Assembly (NCBI RefSeq): GCF_012844235.1
Contig: NZ_JABAGR010000003.1
Location: 62,001-126,000, forward strand
Direction: 5' to 3'
DNA from: Parafannyhessea umbonata
GTDB lineage: Bacteria; Actinomycetota; Coriobacteriia; Coriobacteriales; Atopobiaceae
Length of the DNA stretch: 64,000 bases
The position numbers and the translations under genes are program-made. The notes beneath the pieces were generated by a model that saw nothing but the letters and a program-made list of their open reading frames with translations, did no database searches and was not told the DNA's origin. The first letter of the stretch is position 1; every line of letters starts with the position of its first letter. Shown here in pieces: positions 7,524 through 19,470 of the stretch.

Positions 7524-9320
7524 CTAGTCGAGCTTGCGGGCACGACGGCGAAGCACGATGCCGGCTGCGCCAAACGCCACGGCAAGGCCGGCAAGAATTC
7601 CGGCGCCGGCGAGGTTCGTGCTGTCGGACGTCCTGGGCACGGCGGCCTTTGCGACCGTGGCCTGCTTCTGGACGGCGGCCTTCTGCACTGCCACCTTCGG
7701 AGTCTCGGGAGTCTTCGGCGTAGCTGGCGGCGTGACGGGAGGGGTCGTCGGGGGCGTGGTCGGCGGCGTGACGGGAGGTGCGAACGTTGTCGTCTTCACG
7801 ACCTCGTAGCCGGCCTTCCAGGTGTCCTTGGTGACTTCCTCCGTCTTGGTGACCTTGTACCATGCCTTGTACTTGTAGGTCGGGACCTTGGTGACACTGC
7901 TTACGTTGTACTCAGCCGACCACTCGATGGCGGGTTTGTAGTTCCGGACCGTCTTCGTGAAGTACCACTTGAGGATGGACGTCTCGCGTGTCTTGTCGAA
8001 CGAATACGAGTACGTGGGCAGCGTGCCCCAGTCCAGATGCGAGATCTTATCAGAGGAGCTGACGTGCACGGTGTAGTTGCCGTCTTCGTTCTTGGTCACC
8101 CAGTAAGTGCCTGACGTCTTCTCGCTCGTGGAGAATTTCCCGTCGAATCCCGTGAAGCAACCGATGTATGTCTTGTTGCTTGGGTCGTTTTTCTCTATTA
8201 CATTTTTGATTGCGCTGAGGGTGTCTGAATCTACCGTTTCCGGCGTCCATATGACATACCAAGTGGACTGTTTGATGGCGGCGAAGCTGCCGGCGCCAAG
8301 CTGATACTCAGTGCTCGAGTCGCCCTTGCCGCCCCAAGCAACTTCGCTTTGAGTCTTGACTTTGTTCTTGACCGTGTAGCCATCTCTCTCTGCCTCGGTA
8401 GTCTTCTGCTCAAGGTCACGATCGCGTGCGTCCTTGCTGTAGAAAGTGCCACCCGTAACGTGCACGGTCTCGGTCTTGGTGCCGTCTTCCTTCGAGGTCA
8501 CGTCGCCAAGCTCAACATCCCGGAGAACGCCGCCGGGGTCATTCACTGCTTCAGTTGCCTTTGCGGCTGCAGCTGCCTCTTCGCTGTCAAACGGGCCATA
8601 CTTCTGCTCTATGGCCTCGCCGTCCTTCTCGCCCCTCTTGTTGGCGTTCTCTTGAGGCGTCACCGTGCTGTCGACGGTGTAGGCGGTGTCTGCCGTAGCC
8701 TTGTACTTCTCGGTCTGACTTGCGACCCAATCCTCGGCTTTCTGTTTGCTTGTGAACCCATCCTTCTTGTCCGAGGCGACGCTGTCGTTCTTCTCCTCGG
8801 TCGTTCCGGACTCTACCTTTTCCACGCCGGACTTCACGTCGTACGTGGTGTCGCCGGTGTTCTGGTAGCCGGAGGTGTTGTCTTTCACCCACTTGTCGGC
8901 CTCGTCCTTGGTGCCGAACTCCTCGTTCCCTTCCTTCTCCGTCGTCGTGGTCGACGTGGTGGTGGAGTTCACCTTCTCCGGGCCGGTCGTCTTCACCTCA
9001 TACGTGGAGGTGGTGTCCTTCTTGTCTTTCTCTGCCCATGTTGACTTTGCGTTGTCCAGGTAGCTCTGGGCCTCGTCCTTTGTGGGGAAGGTCTCCTCGT
9101 CTTTCGCGACGGTCTGTGTGGTGGTGTAGGGTGCCGTCATGCTTGGAGTTGCAGCCGCCGTAGTCGTTGCGGAGGGTTCCTCAGTTGGCGCTGACGTTGC
9201 CGGCTCGTCGGCCAGGGCGATGGCCGGGGCAGAAAGGGTGACTGCCGCGGTGGTCGTCGCCACTACGCAGGAGAGTGCTGTATGGCGTGGTGACCGGAGG
9301 GTGACGCATTGCTTGCTCAT
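7524..9320 (-). CDS. repeat-containing cell-surface protein with degenerate sortase signal
   Basis: A 598-residue exported protein. Residues 1-37 are a signal peptide ending ALA-DE. Four clear copies of a 30-40 residue unit follow (about 77-111, 134-163, 188-218 and 292-324), each with a pattern like F-x-T/S-K-x-x-A-x-x-W/Y then Y-x-V; a diverged copy is near 243-288. Residues 330-490 form a domain I do not recognise. A Pro-Thr stretch (about 505-530) precedes VPRTS (561-565), a hydrophobic span and an RRRARK tail. The end looks like an LPxTG cell-wall anchor with the Leu and Gly replaced. GGAG precedes the ATG at 9320. Confidence 0.8.
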   Translation of the reverse strand: MSKQCVTLRSPRHTALSCVVATTTAAVTLSAPAIALADEPATSAPTEEPSATTTAAATPSMTAPYTTTQTVAKDEETFPTKDEAQSYLDNAKSTWAEKDKKDTTSTYEVKTTGPEKVNSTTTSTTTTEKEGNEEFGTKDEADKWVKDNTSGYQNTGDTTYDVKSGVEKVESGTTEEKNDSVASDKKDGFTSKQKAEDWVASQTEKYKATADTAYTVDSTVTPQENANKRGEKDGEAIEQKYGPFDSEEAAAAAKATEAVNDPGGVLRDVELGDVTSKEDGTKTETVHVTGGTFYSKDARDRDLEQKTTEAERDGYTVKNKVKTQSEVAWGGKGDSSTEYQLGAGSFAAIKQSTWYVIWTPETVDSDTLSAIKNVIEKNDPSNKTYIGCFTGFDGKFSTSEKTSGTYWVTKNEDGNYTVHVSSSDKISHLDWGTLPTYSYSFDKTRETSILKWYFTKTVRNYKPAIEWSAEYNVSSVTKVPTYKYKAWYKVTKTEEVTKDTWKAGYEVVKTTTFAPPVTPPTTPPTTPPVTPPATPKTPETPKVAVQKAAVQKQATVAKAAVPRTSDSTNLAGAGILAGLAVAFGAAGIVLRRRARKLD

Positions 9321-9445
9321 AGCTTCTCCTTCCATGGACGGATTCCATTATTCACAAAATTACCATGTGAGGAGTTGGCTGTGGGTATGCGTGTCTATAA
9401 AGCAGCCGCCTAGGAACGAAAAGCTGCAATAGAGGTCTAAACACA

Positions 9446-9487: not shown

Positions 9488-10450
9488 CTATTTGCCTACG
9501 GTGGTGCGGTAGAGGTCCAGGTCCTCCTCCCAGGTGGCGTACGTGGGGTCATCGCGGTGGTCGGGCAACCTATAGCGCCTGCTCAGCAGCAGTGCCAGCT
9601 CGCGCGATACCTTCGTGGCGCCGCTCAGGTTGAGGTGGTCGCCGCGGTCGCGCGTGTCCGTGCGCCAGTCGATGTCGACCTTGTGCCGTCCGCGGTTCAG
9701 GTCTATGTAGCCAACATGCATCCCGTGCGCAAGGCGTGCAATCCCGTTGTGGCGCGGCGTGCTCCAGTTGACGGTCGAGGGCGTGCTCACCAGCACGGGA
9801 GTGGCGCCGTGCGCGCGACAGTAGCCGACCATCAGGCGCAGGTACTCCTGGTTTTCCCGCGGCACGACGCTTGCCTTGCGCGTGTGGGTCATGTAGTCGG
9901 TGTTGCGTGACGGCTTCGCCACGCGGTTGGGCACAAAGCCCCTCAGGTACGCGCGCGAGTCGCTCGACTTCGGAAGGTCGTGCGTGAGGATGCGCTTCCA
10001 GCGATCGTGGTACTCGAATACGGGCACGTGGTCCTGCAGGAACCTCAGTGACGGGTCAAGCGTCGAGAAGGACGAGTACACAGAGTTGGTCTCTATCACC
10101 ACCACGCGCGGAGAGCTCGTGGTGAGGACCTCGCGCAGCAGCGTGTAGCTGTACGGGAGCCTCTGGCCGTGCGAGGCGATCACGCGGCTGGCAAACCCGC
10201 TCTCGCCCCACATCTCCAGGGGCGAAAACGCGCTGTATGCTTCGCTGTCGCCGATGAACAGCACGTCGAGGCCGCCGTTCTTCTCGCCCGTGGCGTCATG
10301 CGCCGTCGCGTCCACCGTGCCTTCCTCGTGCGCGTCCGCCTTGGGCAGCGACGCCCAGGACGTCACGGCCAGAAGGCCGGCCGTGACGAGAAAGACGGCC
10401 AGCGCCGTGAGGGCAACGCCCAGGCGGGCGCGGAGCTTCTGGTTTCTCAT
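9488..10450 (-). CDS. DltD/AlgJ-like SGNH acyltransferase partner protein
   Basis: A 320-residue protein with one N-terminal membrane anchor (residues 8-30) and an extracellular SGNH-hydrolase-like domain. FIGDSEAYSAF carries the candidate nucleophile Ser69, and DRGDHLNLSG near residue 275 supplies the Asp-x-x-His pair. Proteins of this type (DltD, AlgJ/AlgX) work with an MBOAT to acylate a surface polymer. It lies 9 bases after the MBOAT gene and is the last gene of the operon. GGAGGCACGC precedes the ATG. Confidence 0.8.
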   Translation of the reverse strand: MRNQKLRARLGVALTALAVFLVTAGLLAVTSWASLPKADAHEEGTVDATAHDATGEKNGGLDVLFIGDSEAYSAFSPLEMWGESGFASRVIASHGQRLPYSYTLLREVLTTSSPRVVVIETNSVYSSFSTLDPSLRFLQDHVPVFEYHDRWKRILTHDLPKSSDSRAYLRGFVPNRVAKPSRNTDYMTHTRKASVVPRENQEYLRLMVGYCRAHGATPVLVSTPSTVNWSTPRHNGIARLAHGMHVGYIDLNRGRHKVDIDWRTDTRDRGDHLNLSGATKVSRELALLLSRRYRLPDHRDDPTYATWEEDLDLYRTTVGK

Positions 10451-10459
10451 GCGTGCCTC

Positions 10460-12049
10460 CTAGAACTTCGCATACATGGGCGCGATGGGGATGTAGCTTG
10501 CGCCGTACGCGCCAAAGATCACGATTGCCATGAACAGCGCTATGGCCACGGCCCATCGGGCAACGGTGCCGCGCTCACATAGGGCTCCCAGCACGTCGCG
10601 CCCGCGCTCCCGCGCTATGCTCACGGCGAGCACGCCGGCAAGCGCCAGGCAGACCACCAGGTAGTCCGGGCCGTCGAGTCCCACGGAGAATATGGCGCCG
10701 CTCGTGAACGCACGCAGCGAGAAGTCCGTCACGATTCTGCGGAACATGGCGAGGCCGGCGGCAAGGCCGTCCGCGCGGAAGAACATCTCGCCCACGAAGA
10801 CGATCACGAGGGTGCGCGCGGTCTGGAACGTGCGGTACGGAGCGGACGTTCGATTGATGCCCAGGCGCAGGGCCGCCTGCGCGGCGATGGGCTCGATGAG
10901 GCCGCCCGCCATGATGAGGACGAAGTAGTACATGCCGAAGAACAGGTACTGGCTGCCGGCGCCGTGCCACAGGCCGTTGATGACCCACACGCACAGCAGC
11001 GCGACGGAGCTGGCCAAAAGCGGTCCGTAGCGGTTGCCAAACACCTTGCGCGCCCGCTTGGTCAGGCGCTTGCACGGCGCGCTGAGCGATACGGGGTAGT
11101 ACACGTAGTCCTTCAGCCACGTGCCCAGCGTGATGTGCCAGCGCTTCCAGAACTCTGACGCGGTGCGCGAGAAGAACGGCTGCCTGAAGTTCCGGGGCAG
11201 GCGGACGTTGAAGATCTGGGCGATTCCCAGGGCCACGTCCATCGTGCCCGAGAAGTCGCAGTACAGCTGCAACGTGTACAGGATGGCCGCAAACGCCGTG
11301 ACGCCTCCGTCAAACAGGTAGTGGCCGCCAAACACGGGTCGGACGAACGCGTTGAGCCTGTCCGCCACGATGATCTTCTTCGCAAATCCGTACAGGATGC
11401 GGACCGTGCCCGCGTACATGGACCTGCGGTCAAGCGGCTCGCCTGCGGTGAGGGACTCCGTCGTCTGGTTGTAGCGACAGATTGGCCCCTCCATGATCTG
11501 CGGGAAGAAGCTCAGGTACAGCGCGACGCGGCCAAGGCTCCTGTCCGCGCGCACGGACTCTCGATAGACGTCCACCAGGTAGGACACCGCCATGAGCGTG
11601 TAGAACGAGATGCCTATGGGGAGGTCGTGCGGCGGCACGTTGACCACGAAGCCGTGGCCGAAGAGCCCAAACAGGCCGGAGAGCGCCTCGCCGAAGAACT
11701 TCACGTACTTGAGCGCGACGAGCATGCCCACGTTGAGAAGGACGCCCGCCGTGAGGATGGCGCGCATGCGGCGCTTCGCGCTGGCGCGGATGGCGCGCTT
11801 GCCCGACGTGGCGCCGGCGAGCCGCTTGTCCCTCTGCCTGATCTGGGCGTCGAGTGCGAGGGCAAGGCCGTAGACGGAGACCGTCGAGGCCAGTATGAAC
11901 ACGATGAGCCTGCCACTGAGGATCCAGAAAAACGCGTAGCTCGCCACGAGCAGCACGACCCAGCGCGCCTTTCTGGGGGCGATGCCGTACGCGGTCACCA
12001 CAAGGGGCAGAAACACCGCGAAGAACAGGATGGAAAAATAGGAAGTCAT
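10460..12049 (-). CDS. MBOAT O-acyltransferase (DltB-like)
   Basis: A 529-residue polytopic membrane protein of the MBOAT family. The signature region SFFPQIMEGPICRYNQ and the catalytic VINGLWHGAG with His362 are clear. In Dlt systems DltB hands an aminoacyl group from the carrier protein across the membrane; here the neighbours (carrier, adenylating enzyme, SGNH protein) indicate the same job. The ATG at 12049 follows GGGGA; a longer opening to 12094 would lie in the intergenic hairpin. Length is larger than Gram-positive DltB (about 400-415), closer to alginate-type MBOATs. Confidence 0.88.
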   Translation of the reverse strand: MTSYFSILFFAVFLPLVVTAYGIAPRKARWVVLLVASYAFFWILSGRLIVFILASTVSVYGLALALDAQIRQRDKRLAGATSGKRAIRASAKRRMRAILTAGVLLNVGMLVALKYVKFFGEALSGLFGLFGHGFVVNVPPHDLPIGISFYTLMAVSYLVDVYRESVRADRSLGRVALYLSFFPQIMEGPICRYNQTTESLTAGEPLDRRSMYAGTVRILYGFAKKIIVADRLNAFVRPVFGGHYLFDGGVTAFAAILYTLQLYCDFSGTMDVALGIAQIFNVRLPRNFRQPFFSRTASEFWKRWHITLGTWLKDYVYYPVSLSAPCKRLTKRARKVFGNRYGPLLASSVALLCVWVINGLWHGAGSQYLFFGMYYFVLIMAGGLIEPIAAQAALRLGINRTSAPYRTFQTARTLVIVFVGEMFFRADGLAAGLAMFRRIVTDFSLRAFTSGAIFSVGLDGPDYLVVCLALAGVLAVSIARERGRDVLGALCERGTVARWAVAIALFMAIVIFGAYGASYIPIAPMYAKF

Positions 12050-12078
12050 GCTATCCCCTGGGTTGGGACCTACAGAGA

Positions 12079-12118
12079 ACGCCCCCGGCGACACGAGTGC
12101 TTGGGTCGGCGGGGGCGT
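12079..12118 (-). terminator. intercistronic hairpin between carrier protein and MBOAT genes
   Basis: A 14-bp stem with one mismatch (12079-12092 with 12105-12118) and a 12-base loop. There is no T run, so it may act as a partial terminator or an RNA-stabilising element letting the carrier protein be made in excess of the membrane enzyme. Confidence 0.5.
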
Positions 12119-12135
12119 CTTGGCGCATATGGGAG

Positions 12136-12372
12136 CTAGTCGAGCTCCTCCTCGCGCAGGCGCCTGACCAGCATCTCCATCGCCTCGACTGAGTTGAAGT
12201 TATCGGCGACGATCTCGACGGGCGGAACCTCGATGTCGTACTCGTCCTCGAGCTCGGCCACGAGCGCGACCATGGTGAGCGAGTCGATGACGCGGTCGTC
12301 GATCAGCGTGGTCGAGCCCTCGAAGTCAACGCCGGGCTTGAGCTCCTGAAGGATTTCGGTAACGGTCCTCAT
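12136..12372 (-). CDS. acyl/aminoacyl carrier protein (DltC-like)
   Basis: A 78-residue, very acidic carrier protein. LIDDRVIDSLTMVALVAELE contains the DSL motif with Ser31 as the phosphopantetheine attachment site. Between adenylating-enzyme and MBOAT genes it should carry the activated aminoacyl group as a thioester. The ATG at 12372 follows AAAGGAGAAGAAC. Length and charge fit both DltC and the BtrI-type carriers of amino-acid modification pathways. Confidence 0.88.
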   Translation of the reverse strand: MRTVTEILQELKPGVDFEGSTTLIDDRVIDSLTMVALVAELEDEYDIEVPPVEIVADNFNSVEAMEMLVRRLREEELD

Positions 12373-12436
12373 GTTCTTCTCCTTTGTGTTGTCTGCACGT
12401 TGCATGCGTGGTCTTGCGATATGTCGTTACGCTCTG

Positions 12437-13627
12437 TCAGAGCGGACGAACGCTGTTGAGGGGTGCGGTCTCGATGCGGTCGCGAAGGAGCGTGAGCTTG
12501 CCCGCGCGGTCGCGCCAGACGATGGCGGGGAGGTCGCGGCTCAGGAAGAGCGACATGCCCTCTGTCATGCAGTACGCGCCCGCCTTGTCGAAGGCGACGA
12601 GGTCGCCCACCGCGAGGTCTCCCAGGGGCATCTGCTTCACGAGGATGTCGTTCGTGGTGCAGAGCGAGCCGCAGACCGTCCAGCGGAGGTCGGGGTCTCC
12701 GTGGGGGGTGAGCGCCCGGCACGGTGGCTGCTTCATGGCCATGGCGTGGCCGTAGTACGTGATCTGGTGCATGCCCCCGTCGACGATGGCGACGTTTTGG
12801 CCGTCGATCTGCTTTGCGTCCACCACGCGTGTGACGTAGGTGCCGCACGTCGCGGCGATGCGGCGGCCGAGCTCGATGGTGACCTGGCCGGAAAATGACG
12901 TGTCGGTAAGCGCGCGGGAGAGCGCGAGCGCAGGCTCGAGCTCCGTCTGGCGGACGGCCTTAGGGTCGCGCTCGAAGTACTCGACGGGAAGGCCCGCGCC
13001 GTACTCCATCTCGGCGAGGGGGCAGCCGTAGGCGCGGCCGACCTCCGCCACGAACCTGTCGAGCTTCGCGACCTCGCGTGCGATGCGCTTGGACGATGTC
13101 TTCTGGGTACCGGTGAAGTATTGGATGCCGCGGATGGTGACGTACGGGTCGTTGGCGCATGCGGCTGCGAGCTTCATGATCGTGCTTGCGTCCATGCCGA
13201 ACTGGCTGCCGTTGCTGAGGCGGAGCAGAAGGTCGATGTGCGTGTGCGTCTCGCGCGCCAGCCCGGAGAGCATGTCGAACTGGAGGCGGGACTCGCAGGT
13301 GAAGTGCCCGATGCCCGCATCGCCCGCGATGAGCTCGCGCATGAGGGCGGGGTCCTTAGCGACGCCCGAGACGACGATCTGGCTGGGGTCGACGCCCGCG
13401 GCCTGGCAGATGCGCACTTCTCCCGTGGAGCAGGCCTCGAGCCTGTCGACGAGCTTCGAGATGGGGCCCACCACGAACGGGTTCGCCTTCATGGCGAAGC
13501 AGATGTTGGTGCGCGGGGGCAGGACCTCGCGGATGCGGCTGACCTGGTCTGCCAGCTCGCGCTCGTCGAAGACGTAGAACGGCGTCTGGCAGAACTCGCC
13601 CACGCGCCTGAGTTCCTCTGCGTTCAT
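12437..13627 (-). CDS. PLP-dependent (fold III) amino-acid decarboxylase, LysA/BtrK-like
   Basis: A 396-residue enzyme of the diaminopimelate/ornithine decarboxylase family. FAMKANP holds the PLP lysine (Lys47), then VSGVAKD, LRLSNGSQFGMD, the YGAGLPV block, IELGRRIAATCGTYVTRV and VCGSLCTTNDIL with the catalytic-type Cys. It lies 6 bases after the adenylation gene and just before the carrier-protein gene, a place unlike that of biosynthetic lysA. BtrK of butirosin synthesis is a related enzyme that decarboxylates an amino acid while it is bound to a carrier protein; a similar role is inferred. A free amino-acid decarboxylase or a racemase is the alternative. Confidence 0.82.
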   Translation of the reverse strand: MNAEELRRVGEFCQTPFYVFDERELADQVSRIREVLPPRTNICFAMKANPFVVGPISKLVDRLEACSTGEVRICQAAGVDPSQIVVSGVAKDPALMRELIAGDAGIGHFTCESRLQFDMLSGLARETHTHIDLLLRLSNGSQFGMDASTIMKLAAACANDPYVTIRGIQYFTGTQKTSSKRIAREVAKLDRFVAEVGRAYGCPLAEMEYGAGLPVEYFERDPKAVRQTELEPALALSRALTDTSFSGQVTIELGRRIAATCGTYVTRVVDAKQIDGQNVAIVDGGMHQITYYGHAMAMKQPPCRALTPHGDPDLRWTVCGSLCTTNDILVKQMPLGDLAVGDLVAFDKAGAYCMTEGMSLFLSRDLPAIVWRDRAGKLTLLRDRIETAPLNSVRPL

Positions 13628-13633
13628 GCCGGC

Positions 13634-15172
13634 TTACCTTCCTTCCTTGGACTTGGTGGGGAAGTACGTCCTGAGCAGCTCTGCCCGGTCGACCTTCCCG
13701 TTCTTGTTGAGGGGCATGGAATCCACTCTGGTGATGCTGGAGGGCCTCATGCTTGCGGGGAGCGTGTCTGCCACGAGGCGGGGCAGCGCGGCCTCGTCTG
13801 CGGTGCCCTCGAAGAACACGCGCAGGCGCTGGCGCCGTGCGTCGAAGGCGCAGCGGCACCTCTGCACGCCGGGGAGGTCCTCGAACGCCTTGTCGACCTC
13901 CTCGAGCTCGATGCGGTGGCCCATGTACTTGATCTGGTTGTCACGGCGTCCGCGGAAGACGAGGTCGCCGGAATCAAGCAGCTCCGCGAGGTCGCCGGTG
14001 CGGTACACGCGGTCGTGGTACAGGCCGTTGAGCGGGTTCTGCACGAAGGAGCGCCCCGTTGCCTCGGGGTTGCCCACGTAGCCGAGGGCGACGGACGGGC
14101 CGCGCACGACGAGCTCTCCCAGCCTGCCCGGCTCCGTCACCAGGCGATCCGCCTCGTCGAGGAGAAGGACCTCGCAGTGGCCGAAGCTCCTTCCCAGGGG
14201 GAGCCCCTGTGGGTATGCGGCCGTGCGGTCCACCACGTGGTACAGGCAGTTGCAGGTGATCTCCGTGGGACCGTACAGGTTGACGAAGCGGGCGTCGGGC
14301 AGGCATCTGAGCCAGGCGTCCAGGTGCTTTCTGGGGATGACCTCGCCGCTGAAGAGGACCTGCCTCACGCTCTGGAGCCTGCCGGGCGCAAGCACGTGGT
14401 ACGCGCTGGCGATGCACAGGGCGGCCACGGCCCAGACCATGACGGTGACCTGGTTCTTCTCGAGGTAGTCGACAAGTGCCTGCGGCTGCATGAACAGCTC
14501 GCGCGGGACGAGCACGAGGGTGGCGCCCACGGCGAGCGACCCGTACACGTCCTTCACGGAGATGTCGAAGTCGAATGGGGCCTGGTTCGCGAAGCGGTCC
14601 TCGCTCGTGAAGCCGAAGATGCGGACGAACTCGTCCACGAAGCTCGCGATGGCGCCGTGGCTGACGGCGACGCCCTTCGGCGTGCCGGTGGAGCCGGAGG
14701 TGAACATGACGTATGCCGGATCGCACGAGAGCGTGTGGGAGCGAGCCGCCTCGAGCGCCCCTGTGTCCACCGGCTGGCGTAGCAGCTCCTCTGCAATGAG
14801 GACCTCTTGCCCCGGAAGTGCCTGGCGCACGGCGTCCGCGTTCTTCTCGCCTGCGACGACGAGGGCGTTGCCGAGGGTGGCGGCCATGTGACGGAGCCTG
14901 TGGGTGGGCGCGCTGGTGTCGATGGGCACGTAGCACGCGCCGGCCTGCAGCGTTCCGAGCATGCAGGCAAGTGCGAGCTCGCTCTTGCGCAGCATGATGA
15001 TGACGGATGACCCGCACGCGCCGCACCTTGCGAGCGCGCTGCCGACGTGCTGCGTGTCTTCCAGCAGCCTTGCGTACGTGTACGTGCCGGACTCGTCGAT
15101 GACGGCGATTGCGTTGGGGTTGCGTCTGGTGGAGTCCTCGAGGTAGGTGAGGACGTTCGTTCTTGAGAGCAT
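13634..15172 (-). CDS. amino-acid adenylating enzyme (DltA-like)
   Basis: A 512-residue stand-alone adenylation domain. TSGSTGTPKG (158-167) is the P-loop core, FDFDISVKDVYG (200-211) the A4 substrate motif, NLYGPTE the A5, RTGDLAE the A7 and NGKVDR the A10 with the catalytic Lys. The Asp at 203 would bind the alpha-amino group; Lys207 falls at the pocket position that is Lys in some glutamate-activating NRPS codes, hinting at an acidic side chain. It should load an amino acid onto the DltC-like carrier. It is the first gene of the operon, about 80 bases after the sensor kinase. Confidence 0.85.
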   Translation of the reverse strand: MLSRTNVLTYLEDSTRRNPNAIAVIDESGTYTYARLLEDTQHVGSALARCGACGSSVIIMLRKSELALACMLGTLQAGACYVPIDTSAPTHRLRHMAATLGNALVVAGEKNADAVRQALPGQEVLIAEELLRQPVDTGALEAARSHTLSCDPAYVMFTSGSTGTPKGVAVSHGAIASFVDEFVRIFGFTSEDRFANQAPFDFDISVKDVYGSLAVGATLVLVPRELFMQPQALVDYLEKNQVTVMVWAVAALCIASAYHVLAPGRLQSVRQVLFSGEVIPRKHLDAWLRCLPDARFVNLYGPTEITCNCLYHVVDRTAAYPQGLPLGRSFGHCEVLLLDEADRLVTEPGRLGELVVRGPSVALGYVGNPEATGRSFVQNPLNGLYHDRVYRTGDLAELLDSGDLVFRGRRDNQIKYMGHRIELEEVDKAFEDLPGVQRCRCAFDARRQRLRVFFEGTADEAALPRLVADTLPASMRPSSITRVDSMPLNKNGKVDRAELLRTYFPTKSKEGR

Positions 15173-15230: not shown

Positions 15231-15258
15231 CCTAAACGCCGCCTAAAGGAACCTTTAG
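15231..15258 (-). promoter_or_regulatory. candidate response-regulator site before the dlt-like operon
   Basis: CCTAAA occurs at 15231-15236 and 15242-15247, exactly 11 bp apart, the spacing of OmpR/PhoB-type direct repeats. The second copy runs into a palindrome, CTAAAGG (15243-15249) and CCTTTAG (15252-15258), over the kinase stop codon. The upstream response regulator is the obvious candidate to bind here. Confidence 0.5.
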
Positions 15259-16886
15259 TCTTTCTGCGCGGCCGGGAGGGTCAAGAGGACCTCCGTGGAG
15301 TACGGGGACTCGGCGTGCTCCGCGAACGAAATCGTGCCGCCTTGCACCTGCATGCACGTGCTTGCGATGGCAAGGCCCAGTCCCGTGCCCTTGCCGGTGG
15401 AGCGCGCCTTGTTGCTGGTGACGAACGGCTCGAACGCGTGCGCTCGGATGTCCTTGGGCACGCCCTGTCCGTCGTCCGCGATCGAGACGAGGGCGCCGTC
15501 GCGCGTTGCCGCGCATGCGACGCGGATGGTGACGCCACGGGGGTTGTGCTTGTAGGCGTTGTCTATCACGTTGCTGACGGCGCGCCTGAGGAGCTCGACG
15601 TCCGCGCGGGCGCGGATGGGTCTGTCCGGGAGCTCCACCACGAGCGTGCCACCCGCCTGCTCGATGTCGGGCTGCTTGTCGATGAGCATGATGCGCAGCT
15701 CTTCGCACAGGTCACGGTTCTCGAGCGTCGCCCGGTACGAGGGGTGGTCGGTCTTCGCAAAAAACTGCAGCGAGTCTATGAGCTCGCACGCAAGGTCGGC
15801 CTTCGCGGCGATGGCGTGCAGGTACTTCTCGGCGCTTTCCTGCGGAACGCGGCCGTCCTCGAACGCTTGGGCGTAGCCGCGGATGACGGAGAGCGGTGTC
15901 TTCAGGTCGTGCGAGACGTCTGCGATCATGCGGCGCTTGTCGTCCTGCGCGTGGTCGAGCTCGGTCATGAGGCCGAGGAAGTCCTCGTAGGTGTGCCTGA
16001 GCTCCACGGGCATGGCGGACGGGTCCGGCGCGTTGCCGACGCCGCTGCGGCGCGCGTCTATGGCGCGGTCCAGCGGTCGGGTGGACCTGCGCACGACCCG
16101 TGCGAGGACGGCGATTGCCAGGACCGTGAGCGCGACGGCGATGGGTACCGACGCGATGCGGTAGGTGTTCGAGCGGTCGACGGCGGCCCTGAAGTCCTTG
16201 CCGGACTCCGTGGGCGAAAGCAGCACGAGGATGCGCCGCTGGCCCTTCTCGTTCTTGTAGCTGTGCTTCGCGATCATCATGCGGCGGCTGTAGACGCCTT
16301 GGAGCAGGGACATCTCGCGCTTGGTCAGGCGGGTCTTATCGCCAAAGAGGTCGCCGCCCACGATGGTGCCGTCCGAGAGATACGTGCAGGTGGACTTGAC
16401 GCTGATGGCGTAGCCGTCCGGAGTGGACTCGGGCTTGCAGAGGTTGATCTCGTGCACGGTCCTTCCGCGGTCGTCCTTGCGGTCCAGCATCACGTACACA
16501 GAGCCATCGTCCTCGTCGCCCGCGATGAGCGGGAGCTCCTTTGCGGTGATCTTCTGGGCGACCTTCTGGCTGGTCGAGAAGAGCAGCCCTCCCTTCCCGT
16601 CGAACACCAGAAGTGCACTTGGCGGTGAGACAAGCGACGCCATCTGATTGAAGTCATCAGTCTGCATCATGGTCGAGCCGTCGTCGAACATCTCTATGTA
16701 CGGAGAAGTGCGTTTGAGCTCCTCGGTTGCGAGCTTGTTTGTGACGTGCAGCACTCCCGCCATTGCGAGTATGTAGGCGAGTACTACCAGAAGGCACCTC
16801 ACGGTGAGGCTCGTCGTAGCGTTGCGAAACGCAGCCCGCAGCCTGGTGTGCCTGGTGCGTTTGTCGTTCTTCTCGCTACTCGTCAA
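15255..16886 (-). CDS. sensor histidine kinase
   Basis: A 543-residue membrane kinase. A transmembrane helix (28-48), an extracellular sensor of about 195 residues, a second helix (244-265), a HAMP-like linker, the H-box IADVSHDLKTPLS with His326, and the ATPase domain with NVIDNAYKHNP, ADDGQGVP and GTGLGLAIA. No in-frame ATG fits; TTG at 16886, overlapping the regulator stop by 11 bases and preceded by GGGG, is chosen. Paired with the upstream response regulator, it probably senses an envelope condition and controls the dlt-like genes downstream. Confidence 0.88.
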   Translation of the reverse strand: MTSSEKNDKRTRHTRLRAAFRNATTSLTVRCLLVVLAYILAMAGVLHVTNKLATEELKRTSPYIEMFDDGSTMMQTDDFNQMASLVSPPSALLVFDGKGGLLFSTSQKVAQKITAKELPLIAGDEDDGSVYVMLDRKDDRGRTVHEINLCKPESTPDGYAISVKSTCTYLSDGTIVGGDLFGDKTRLTKREMSLLQGVYSRRMMIAKHSYKNEKGQRRILVLLSPTESGKDFRAAVDRSNTYRIASVPIAVALTVLAIAVLARVVRRSTRPLDRAIDARRSGVGNAPDPSAMPVELRHTYEDFLGLMTELDHAQDDKRRMIADVSHDLKTPLSVIRGYAQAFEDGRVPQESAEKYLHAIAAKADLACELIDSLQFFAKTDHPSYRATLENRDLCEELRIMLIDKQPDIEQAGGTLVVELPDRPIRARADVELLRRAVSNVIDNAYKHNPRGVTIRVACAATRDGALVSIADDGQGVPKDIRAHAFEPFVTSNKARSTGKGTGLGLAIASTCMQVQGGTISFAEHAESPYSTEVLLTLPAAQKD

Positions 16887-17625
16887 AGCGGTACCCCAAT
16901 CCGCGCACGGTCTTGATGTGGGCCGGCTTGCCCGGGTCATCCTCGATCTTCGAGCGGATGTTCGAGACGTGCATCATGATGCTTTCCGCTCCGCCGTAGG
17001 AGCTGCCGCTTATGGCCTCGTACAGCTGTGCCTTCGTGAAAACGTGTCCGGGAGCGGACATCATCTTGTGAAGTATCTTCAGTTCGGACGCCGTGAGCGG
17101 CATCACGTTGCCGCGCTTGCGGAGCACGAGGGTATCGAGGTCAAGCTCGAGGTCGCCGGCGGAAAGGACGTTCTTCTCGCCCGTGGCGGCGCTTTCGCCC
17201 CCGTCGTGCTCGGCGGCCATGCCCTGACGGTAGCGGCGCAGCGCCGCGCGCACGTACGCGAGGACCTCCGTGGGGTCGAACGGCTTGGTTACGTAGCCGT
17301 CCGCGCCCAGGTCAAGGCCGAGCACCTTGTCCGACGGCTGGTTGCGCGCGGACACGATGATGATGGGGATGTCCGTGAAGGAGCGGGCCTCCTTGATGAA
17401 GTCGAAGCCGTTCATGGAGGGCATCATGAGGTCTACGAGCGCCAGTGACACGTCGCTCTTGCGCAGGACGTCGAGGCCGCGCTCGCCGTCGCCCGCGGAG
17501 AGGAAGCGATATCCGCTGCTTCCCAGGTAGAGGCGGAGTATCTCCACGATGTCAGGGTCGTCCTCGACGACGATGATCGTGTCCTGCGGTTCTTGACCGC
17601 CTGAGGCGGTGTCCGGTGCTTGCAT
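16876..17625 (-). CDS. OmpR/PhoB family response regulator
   Basis: A 249-residue regulator. The receiver domain (15-130) has acidic EDD at 21-23, phosphoacceptor Asp65 in LVDLMMP and Lys114 in YVTKPF. The C-terminal winged helix (155-249) ends with TVRGLGYRF, typical of OmpR/PhoB proteins such as VanR. The ATG at 17625 follows GAGGCCAAG; an upstream ATG at 17691 is possible but would add a tail that is not conserved. It overlaps the kinase gene. Confidence 0.9.
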   Translation of the reverse strand: MQAPDTASGGQEPQDTIIVVEDDPDIVEILRLYLGSSGYRFLSAGDGERGLDVLRKSDVSLALVDLMMPSMNGFDFIKEARSFTDIPIIIVSARNQPSDKVLGLDLGADGYVTKPFDPTEVLAYVRAALRRYRQGMAAEHDGGESAATGEKNVLSAGDLELDLDTLVLRKRGNVMPLTASELKILHKMMSAPGHVFTKAQLYEAISGSSYGGAESIMMHVSNIRSKIEDDPGKPAHIKTVRGLGYRFDE

Positions 17626-17751
17626 CTTGGCCTCTGTTTCCGGTGCTTGGTGATTGCAGCCCATCGTGAGCGATTGGCACGCAATATGCAAGGGAGCGCG
17701 CGGGCCTGCGTGCAGAGTTCACGTGTGTTACGGCTCCCTGTGCACAAAAGA

Positions 17752-17788
17752 CGGCCGGGACGCCCCAAAGCCCGAGGCGTCCCGGCCG
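17752..17788 (-). terminator. terminator of yhbY
   Basis: A perfect 13-bp stem, CGGCCGGGACGCC (17752-17764) with GGCGTCCCGGCCG (17776-17788), and an 11-base loop. On the minus strand TCTTTTG follows, so it ends the yhbY transcript ahead of the response regulator. Confidence 0.8.
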
Positions 17789-18288: not shown

Positions 18289-19470
18289 CTATCCCAGCTG
18301 CCTGGTCCGGGCACGTCCGAGCGCAATTCCAACAAGCAGTATGGCTATGCCAAACAGCATGCAGACGCCAACGCATCCCACGAGCGGCAGTACGCTCGAG
18401 GTGGAAACGACCCTCATGGCCGACGCGCCCTCAATGGCGCGGTATGCCCAGTAGAATGGGGTGAAATGGGCAACGGCGACAAGTGCATCAGGAAGCAGGG
18501 ACAGATCTGCCCAAGCGCCGCCGAGGACCGAAAGCACCATGCCAAAGATGTTTGCGACGGCGTTCGCGGCATTCTCCGAGATGCCTAGCTGTCCAACGAG
18601 GAATCCCACGCTTGCAGACACCAGCGAGTAGGTGAGAAGGGCAAGCCCCACAATTCCGAGCTGTGCGGGAGACCGTGCGATTGCGCCGCGTCCGAGGAGG
18701 GTTACCTGGAGCCCGAAGTTCCATGCCCAGGCGATGAGGGCTATGCAGACGCACGCAGCCACAAGGGCCACGTTGCGCTCCCTTGGCGATTGCGGGGAGG
18801 CGACCCTGCGCCCGCGCAGCGCCTTGGCGTTGAGGGCTTTCATCAGGAGGGCGATGCAGACGGTGACGCTTGCGAAGATGGGATACGAGGAGAAGAGCGC
18901 GGCGCTTAGGAGGGGGTTGGGCAGCGGCGTTGCGCGCTGGCCGATGGTCGAGACGCCAATGCTCTTGCCCCACGACTCGTCGGTCGTGCGCACCGCATCC
19001 CCCTGGCTTCCTCCGAGAGATGCCGAGCCAAAGAGTCCCTGGACGTAGCTCTTGACTTGCTGGTCTACGAGAAAGCCCTCGCCGGAGCGATACGACACGG
19101 AAGCTTCCAGAGCGGGGGCGGTGCCATCGCCGGCAGCTGCGACCATGAGATCGTGCCCCCAACCCTTTGGGATGACGAGGAGGTATGAGACCGCATCCTG
19201 GGCGAGCGCGTCCTGGACCGACTTCTTGTCATCCGCAAGGGGGACCAAGGTGTTGCCCTCTGCCACGTGAGCGGAGAGCGCTCGAGAGAGCTCAGAGTCG
19301 TCGCGGTCGATTATCGCGACCCTCGACGAGGTTGCCGCGAAGTGCTGGCTCGAGCTCGACGCCGTCGAAAGCCCGATTGCAATTCCCGTTATAGAGATGA
19401 TGACGAGGTAGATGACGATGTATATGCGGTGGGCGAGGAGAATCCTCATGTACGTCTTAAAGGTGGGCAT
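18289..19470 (-). CDS. ABC-2 type transporter permease
   Basis: A 393-residue membrane protein: one N-terminal helix (14-36), a large outside domain of about 180 residues, then five to six helices near the C-terminus. This is the ABC-2 (NatB/YhgE-like) permease layout. It overlaps the preceding permease gene by 14 bases, and both follow an ATPase, so the three form a heterodimeric exporter. Substrate unknown; divergent two-component genes suggest it answers to an envelope signal or antimicrobial. Confidence 0.85.
   Translation of the reverse strand: MPTFKTYMRILLAHRIYIVIYLVIISITGIAIGLSTASSSSQHFAATSSRVAIIDRDDSELSRALSAHVAEGNTLVPLADDKKSVQDALAQDAVSYLLVIPKGWGHDLMVAAAGDGTAPALEASVSYRSGEGFLVDQQVKSYVQGLFGSASLGGSQGDAVRTTDESWGKSIGVSTIGQRATPLPNPLLSAALFSSYPIFASVTVCIALLMKALNAKALRGRRVASPQSPRERNVALVAACVCIALIAWAWNFGLQVTLLGRGAIARSPAQLGIVGLALLTYSLVSASVGFLVGQLGISENAANAVANIFGMVLSVLGGAWADLSLLPDALVAVAHFTPFYWAYRAIEGASAMRVVSTSSVLPLVGCVGVCMLFGIAILLVGIALGRARTRQLG

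Follow-up and report, generated by a model that had tools for sequence, protein, structure and literature searches.

A widespread Dlt-related operon with its own putative carrier-associated decarboxylase in Coriobacteriia and Clostridia

By the textbook account, Gram-positive bacteria make their wall polymers more positively charged through D-alanylation, and in this way resist cationic peptides. What does a bacterium attach to its surface when the genes of a Dlt-like system come with a decarboxylase of their own? This question is raised by a locus of Parafannyhessea umbonata, in a stretch of 64,000 nucleotides that we call the window. An initial annotation placed five genes there in one operon, for an adenylating enzyme (A), a decarboxylase that uses PLP (DC), a carrier protein (CP), an MBOAT acyltransferase and an SGNH protein. 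It proposed that this is not an ordinary D-alanine system and that the group attached may be a decarboxylated one.

The operon and its distribution

All five ORFs were confirmed where they had been placed, on the minus strand (Table 1). Four of the products are identified by Pfam and NCBIfam models, i.e. A (AMP-binding), DC (both domains of the Orn/DAP/Arg decarboxylases), CP (PP-binding) and the MBOAT protein. The SGNH protein itself has no Pfam match; Lipase_GDSL_2 is matched by 12 of 40 relatives, and an AlphaFold2 model (pLDDT 91) matches GDSL esterases and the DltD structures 3bma, 6pfx and 6o93. Six bp separate A from DC and 9 bp separate MBOAT from SGNH, the other gaps being below 90 bp. 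The CP ORF extends to 12405; we place the probable start at the internal ATG at 12372 because it is preceded by AAGGAG and relatives begin at the matching point. The unit includes two more genes upstream on the same strand, for a sensor kinase and for a response regulator. A terminator-like hairpin may divide this unit from a YhbY-type gene further upstream, and a pattern scan for a sigma-70-like promoter found none.

Table 1. Features of the operon and its upstream region in the window
Feature	Position	Strand	Basis
A, stand-alone amino-acid adenylating enzyme, 512 aa	13634..15172	-	TIGR01733, pocket, AlphaFold2 model
DC, alanine-racemase-fold PLP decarboxylase, 396 aa	12437..13627	-	Pfam, BtrK relatedness, tree
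CP, acyl/aminoacyl carrier protein, Ser in DSL motif	12136..12372	-	PP-binding
MBOAT acyltransferase, 529 aa, His305 and His362, C-terminus PMYAKF	10460..12049	-	DltB model, profile
SGNH protein, 320 aa, N-terminal membrane helix	9488..10450	-	Model, GDSL Pfam match of relatives
Sensor histidine kinase, extracytoplasmic sensor region	15255..16940	-	Pfam HisKA/HATPase
OmpR-type response regulator	16876..17691	-	Pfam Response_reg/Trans_reg_C
Terminator-like hairpin, 17 pairs	17752..17788	-	Pattern scan; consensus match only

The annotation had suggested looking for the same five genes, in order, in other Coriobacteriia. We scanned a collection of 84,980 species, with one genome per species, and took the best 80 loci. 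In about 70 of these the order A-DC-CP-MBOAT-SGNH is found on a single strand; of the remainder, most are truncated by contig ends and a few have another arrangement. The loci belong to Coriobacteriia and reach into many Clostridia, e.g. Ruminococcus, Agathobaculum, Lacrimispora and Acetobacterium. Adlercreutzia muris DSM 29508 and Ruminococcus bromii are examples of commensals in culture that carry the operon. The mean identity of the relatives to the window proteins is just 36-50% per gene, therefore the gene order has been kept across a large distance. Such an arrangement is not due to chance. The operon is a real and widespread relative of Dlt, and in the literature searched, which included few subscription papers, we found no description of the gene set. 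One of the 80 loci, with the five genes and a response regulator upstream, is in a sequence recorded as Streptococcus suis strain SSHP-D (JAKTNI010000001.1).

Among Coriobacteriia, a close relative of DC (at least 39% identity) is found in 19/199 genomes, with LysA clearly separate at 30% or below. The closest MBOAT proteins (at least 49% identity) are found in 15/199, all of them within the 19 DC-clade genomes. One congener (G200) holds all seven genes, i.e. the five and the two-component system, at 89% identity or more. In another (G199) no gene of the block was found beside the conserved YhbY-type gene and the gene at 18289, and its genome has no DC match. The seven genes appear to have been gained or lost as one, and among the congeners the sensor kinase is present or absent together with the operon. 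In 98 related loci, homologues of the sensor region were found in 34 and homologues of the response regulator in 52, some of these being weak matches. It is probable, judging by this linkage, that the two proteins regulate the operon. Just downstream of the operon, at 7524-9335 on the minus strand, lies a large repetitive surface-type protein with a sortase-substrate-like C-terminal tail (PRTSD, hydrophobic stretch, Arg), which has no match at the corresponding place in G200.

The adenylation pocket and the decarboxylase

Is the amino acid D-alanine? The adenylating enzyme scores 342 bits with the amino-acid adenylation model TIGR01733 (cut-off 317), and its AlphaFold2 model (pLDDT 89) has the A-domain fold. 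With the DltA model TIGR01734 it scores 268.5 bits, below the cut-off of 559.85, and likewise the MBOAT protein scores 134.9 bits with the DltB model TIGR04091, below the cut-off of 375. We read the pocket by conserved-motif alignment to the ten GrsA specificity positions and not from a ligand-bound structure. In the window enzyme it consists of D203, I204, K207, V246, L273, S275, L299, C307, N308 and K493. Across 89 sequences the consensus is D-V-K-[I/V/T]-[L/M]-S-L-C-N-K, with D, K, S, C, N and K invariant; GrsA position 236 is Val (one Ile, one Leu), 239 is Lys and 301 is Ser. The D-alanine pocket of DltA has Leu at 236 and Cys at 301 (PMC11253843), which is not the pattern found in these 89 sequences, and DltA-type enzymes from related Coriobacteriia genomes read D-L-[Y/F]-V-L-C-T-V-A-K. 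Read in this way, the pocket is near-invariant and unlike that of DltA-type enzymes. The view that the operon is not an ordinary D-alanine system is thus borne out at the level of sequence.

The only acidic residue in the pocket is D203. It aligns with D230 of VinN, and S275 with S299, a pair of residues for which contacts to the amino and carboxyl groups of methyl-Asp have been proposed. Arg331 of VinN has no conserved counterpart here, and K207 adds a cation.

The decarboxylase had been described as LysA-like and compared with the BtrJ/BtrI/BtrK set. The tie to BtrK holds and the LysA label does not. The nearest solved structures are those of BtrK (2j66/7ru7). In an unrooted maximum-likelihood tree, in which the LysA-type protein of P. 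umbonata sits on a long branch and VinO was not included, DC groups with BtrK, two TIGR03099 proteins and two carrier-linked Streptomyces enzymes, and these split from 12 LysA-type proteins with support of 100/100. The residues K47, E252, C323-T324-T325-N326-D327 and Y352 can be recognized in DC; of 99 aligned rows, 98-99 retain the residues of its PLP site and of catalysis, and all 99 retain Cys323. A C[T/S]xxD signature is found in 80/80 members of the DC family, and the comparison enzymes (BtrK and the TIGR03099 type) have CTPxD. The 12 LysA-type proteins carry CE[S/T/N]xD and R-x-x-[LI]-Y, and neither motif was found in DC. Its score with the LysA model TIGR01048 is 162.2 bits, below the cut-off of 297.9. 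The score with TIGR03099, 171.1 bits, is also below the cut-off (478.45), yet this is the best NCBIfam model. We therefore rejected a housekeeping LysA as the identity of DC: its motifs differ, and a separate LysA-type gene lies elsewhere in the genome (C24:120005). By these comparisons, DC belongs with the carrier-associated decarboxylases of the BtrK type.

The BtrJ part of the analogy fares less well. BtrJ belongs to the ATP-grasp ligases. VinN/VinL/VinO and BolO/BolC/BolN offer nearer parallels (PMC11284099, PMC7756342). VinN loads 3-methyl-Asp and rejects its decarboxylated form, and VinO decarboxylates the acid on VinL (PMC11284099). The substrate of BtrK is Glu-S-BtrI (PMC7857480), and a mutant of bolN, which encodes a BtrK-like enzyme, is not rescued by added beta-alanine (PMC7756342). 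In the loci that we examined in S. meliloti, Aureimonas and Streptomyces, genes for an adenylating enzyme, a carrier or both adjoin those of the named DC relatives.

Consecutive genes of the S. meliloti locus, on pSymB (L181, 5313-8442), encode a TIGR03098 ligase, a TIGR03099 decarboxylase and a carrier; they lie within a glycosyltransferase region, with no MBOAT gene in the stretch examined. This is the arrangement of the TIGR03098/TIGR03099 pair of exosortase and polysaccharide loci, which resembles the window operon in its AMP-ligase, PLP decarboxylase and carrier. It differs in that an MBOAT-SGNH pair is absent from the two loci examined and the ligase pocket has Arg at GrsA position 330; the window proteins also score below the TIGR03098 cut-off. 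The locus suggests that the loading module has been put to a further, uncharacterised use.

Sister operons and the transfer step

The annotation had read Lys207 as a weak fit to an acidic amino acid. The residue is real and invariant, but we have withdrawn it as a marker of decarboxylation. Genes related to A are found in 85/398 Coriobacteriia genomes. We examined 86 such loci, and DC is nearby in 53 and absent in 33. A pocket of the form D-x-K-x-x-[S/T]-[L/V]-C-N-K is present in 20 of the 33; two of these are at contig ends, which leaves 18 clear cases. Eleven of them have the exact consensus, in six the second residue is Ala and not Val, and one is more divergent. Lys207 would be expected to be lost along with DC, yet it is kept in all 18, and three genomes with such loci (G181, G158 and G194) have no DC-clade gene anywhere. 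A near-identical pocket with Lys207 in operons without DC is therefore no proof of decarboxylation. Parsimony on the A tree gives six changes of DC status, one of them at a contig-cut locus (the mean for shuffles is 26), while the pocket is constant.

Since genes for MBOAT and SGNH proteins adjoin A and CP in most of the 18 loci, we regard a carrier-fed MBOAT-SGNH machine as the constant core and DC as an optional step. The acylation machine seems, from these gene sets, to work without DC. An optional DC fits a tailoring reaction on the carrier and also a supplier of free substrate. The congener G200 has, in addition to its seven-gene block, a second operon, MBOAT-SGNH-A-CP, with the same pocket consensus and no DC (L237, G200:C1:434000-449000, with A at 440730-442223). 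Five other sister A-CP-MBOAT-SGNH operons (L252, L253, L254, L256 and L258) have the pocket SMSYxALDIK, without the amine-binding Asp, which is missing from a further sister pocket, TMKMLSQGAK, as well. Perhaps these operons load acids that lack an amino group and place them on the surface.

The residues for transfer are well conserved. The attachment Ser of CP is found in 96/96 rows, and His305, His362 and Tyr526 of the MBOAT protein in 95/95. The SGNH protein has a GDSE motif with Ser69 (kept in 91/93) and D268-x-G-D-H272-L-N274 (His272 in 92/93). The MBOAT profile matches the DltB structures 8jem and 6bug over residues 135-386 only, and the C-terminal extension ends in Y-x-x-[F/Y] in 76/76 relatives, with the first F of the hexapeptide often being P (PMYAKF). 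The FXYXXF acyl-shuttle motif is found on DltX in Dlt and on PatA itself (PMC12148441). By this likeness, the MBOAT protein bears the shuttle motif, with Tyr526, on its own C-terminus. MBOAT-SGNH pathways other than Dlt have been stated to be without a carrier protein (PMC12148441); the operon appears to combine carrier feeding with a fused shuttle. In some loci a single A-DC-CP-MBOAT set is followed by tandem SGNH paralogues (L109, at about 13.0-17.0 kb; L046, L221, L223 and L226), perhaps for different acceptor polymers.

What the operon may attach to the surface

How does this set of genes compare with known systems? Like Dlt (DltABCD-DltX), it unites in one operon the genes of a stand-alone adenylating enzyme, a carrier, an MBOAT and an SGNH protein, and the aminoacyl donor is carrier-bound. 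Unlike Dlt, it has an additional decarboxylase of a carrier-associated type, a pocket with Lys207 and without the D-alanine residues, a shuttle Tyr fused to the MBOAT protein and, in many loci, an adjoining two-component system. PatA/PatB and other MBOAT-SGNH acetylation pairs share the C-terminal hexapeptide and the separate SGNH transferase, but the donor of PatA is acetyl-CoA, whereas in the window a carrier comes with a dedicated ligase and decarboxylase. The Vin and Bol enzymes, which make beta-aminoacyl units, and BtrI/BtrK of butirosin synthesis are analogous in loading a stand-alone carrier with an acidic amino acid and decarboxylating it there with PLP. These supply small-molecule synthesis, whereas the window product would feed an envelope acyltransferase. 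Operons with their own decarboxylase and a different pocket therefore probably attach not D-alanine but a group of the beta-alanine or GABA type.

We infer the substrate, the decarboxylation on the carrier, the chemical group, the polymer and the effect on charge as follows. A would adenylate an acidic (dicarboxylic) amino acid and join it to CP through the side-chain carboxylate. While the acid is bound to the carrier, DC would then strip its free alpha-carboxylate, so that an omega-aminoacyl thioester results, i.e. beta-alanyl from Asp or 4-aminobutyryl from Glu. The MBOAT protein may shift this group onto the Tyr in the hexapeptide at its own C-terminus, from which the SGNH protein may take it to esterify an extracytoplasmic polymer, perhaps an LTA-like polyol phosphate. 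The polymer would gain positive charge, under the control of the operon's own regulators. We give this whole explanation, from loading to surface acylation, a probability of about 0.6. Its parts differ in strength: it is very likely that the operon encodes a carrier-fed surface O-acylation machine, and rather likely that the group attached is decarboxylated.

Several other readings have to be weighed. DC might act on a free amino acid and A might load the product (beta-alanine, GABA or similar), which operons without DC would draw from general metabolism. The near identity of the pocket with and without DC looks as if one product were always loaded. However, close homologues use the carrier-bound acid, VinN rejects the decarboxylated form (PMC11284099), DC clusters with carrier-associated enzymes and the invariant K207 has no obvious partner in an omega-amino acid; we consider this order of events unlikely. 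It is more doubtful still that carrier-bound meso-diaminopimelate is decarboxylated at its D-centre, so that the polymer is lysylated. This would suit a cationic decoration, and DC-type enzymes share ancestry with DAP decarboxylase (PMC7857480), but DC lacks two marks of LysA (CE and R-x-x-[LI]-Y), the pocket offers no acidic residue besides D203 for a second amine, and LysA supplies lysine directly.

Dlt as a rule attaches D-aminoacyl groups. DC has the alanine-racemase fold and is optional, as expected of a tailoring step, and these points are what would speak for an epimerase or other PLP enzyme that yields a D-aminoacyl or otherwise altered group on the carrier. Its two-domain decarboxylase architecture, Cys323 and the closeness of BtrK make this quite improbable. 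An ordinary D-alanylation operon beside a misplaced or housekeeping LysA is the most improbable reading, in spite of the Dlt-like character of A, the carrier, MBOAT and SGNH. We rejected it on the pocket and on the DltA and DltB cut-offs; the genome has its LysA elsewhere, and DC is kept in the operon across two phyla. Moreover, DltA-like genes beside DltB-like MBOAT genes occur together with the DC operon in three genomes (G070, G157 and G188), so one genome can have both systems.

As a guide to the acceptor polymer, the flanking genes yielded no conserved neighbour besides the two-component system, and no CDP-glycerol glycerophosphotransferase was found in the genome. Three large membrane proteins encoded in it contain a sulfatase domain and weakly resemble LtaS (G000:C1:380544, C12:34346 and C12:26727; L184, L186 and L187). 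These are candidate makers of the polymer, and an LTA-like acceptor is possible.

The preferred reading predicts that the purified carrier loses 44 Da and that the cell surface bears a base-labile group. As G200 has both types of operon, they could be compared directly within one genome. If the reading is true, gut bacteria would have a second, carrier-fed route, with a decarboxylase and often a sensor kinase of its own, that places an unrecorded chemical group on their surfaces, and the carrier-bound decarboxylation of secondary metabolism would be joined to envelope acylation. We tentatively propose a widespread pathway of gut Coriobacteriia and Clostridia, distinct from Dlt, that decarboxylates a dicarboxylic amino acid on the carrier and leaves a cationic omega-aminoacyl ester (beta-alanyl or 4-aminobutyryl) on a polymer of the envelope. 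The sister operons without DC would attach the undecarboxylated acid, and DC may thus act as a charge switch.
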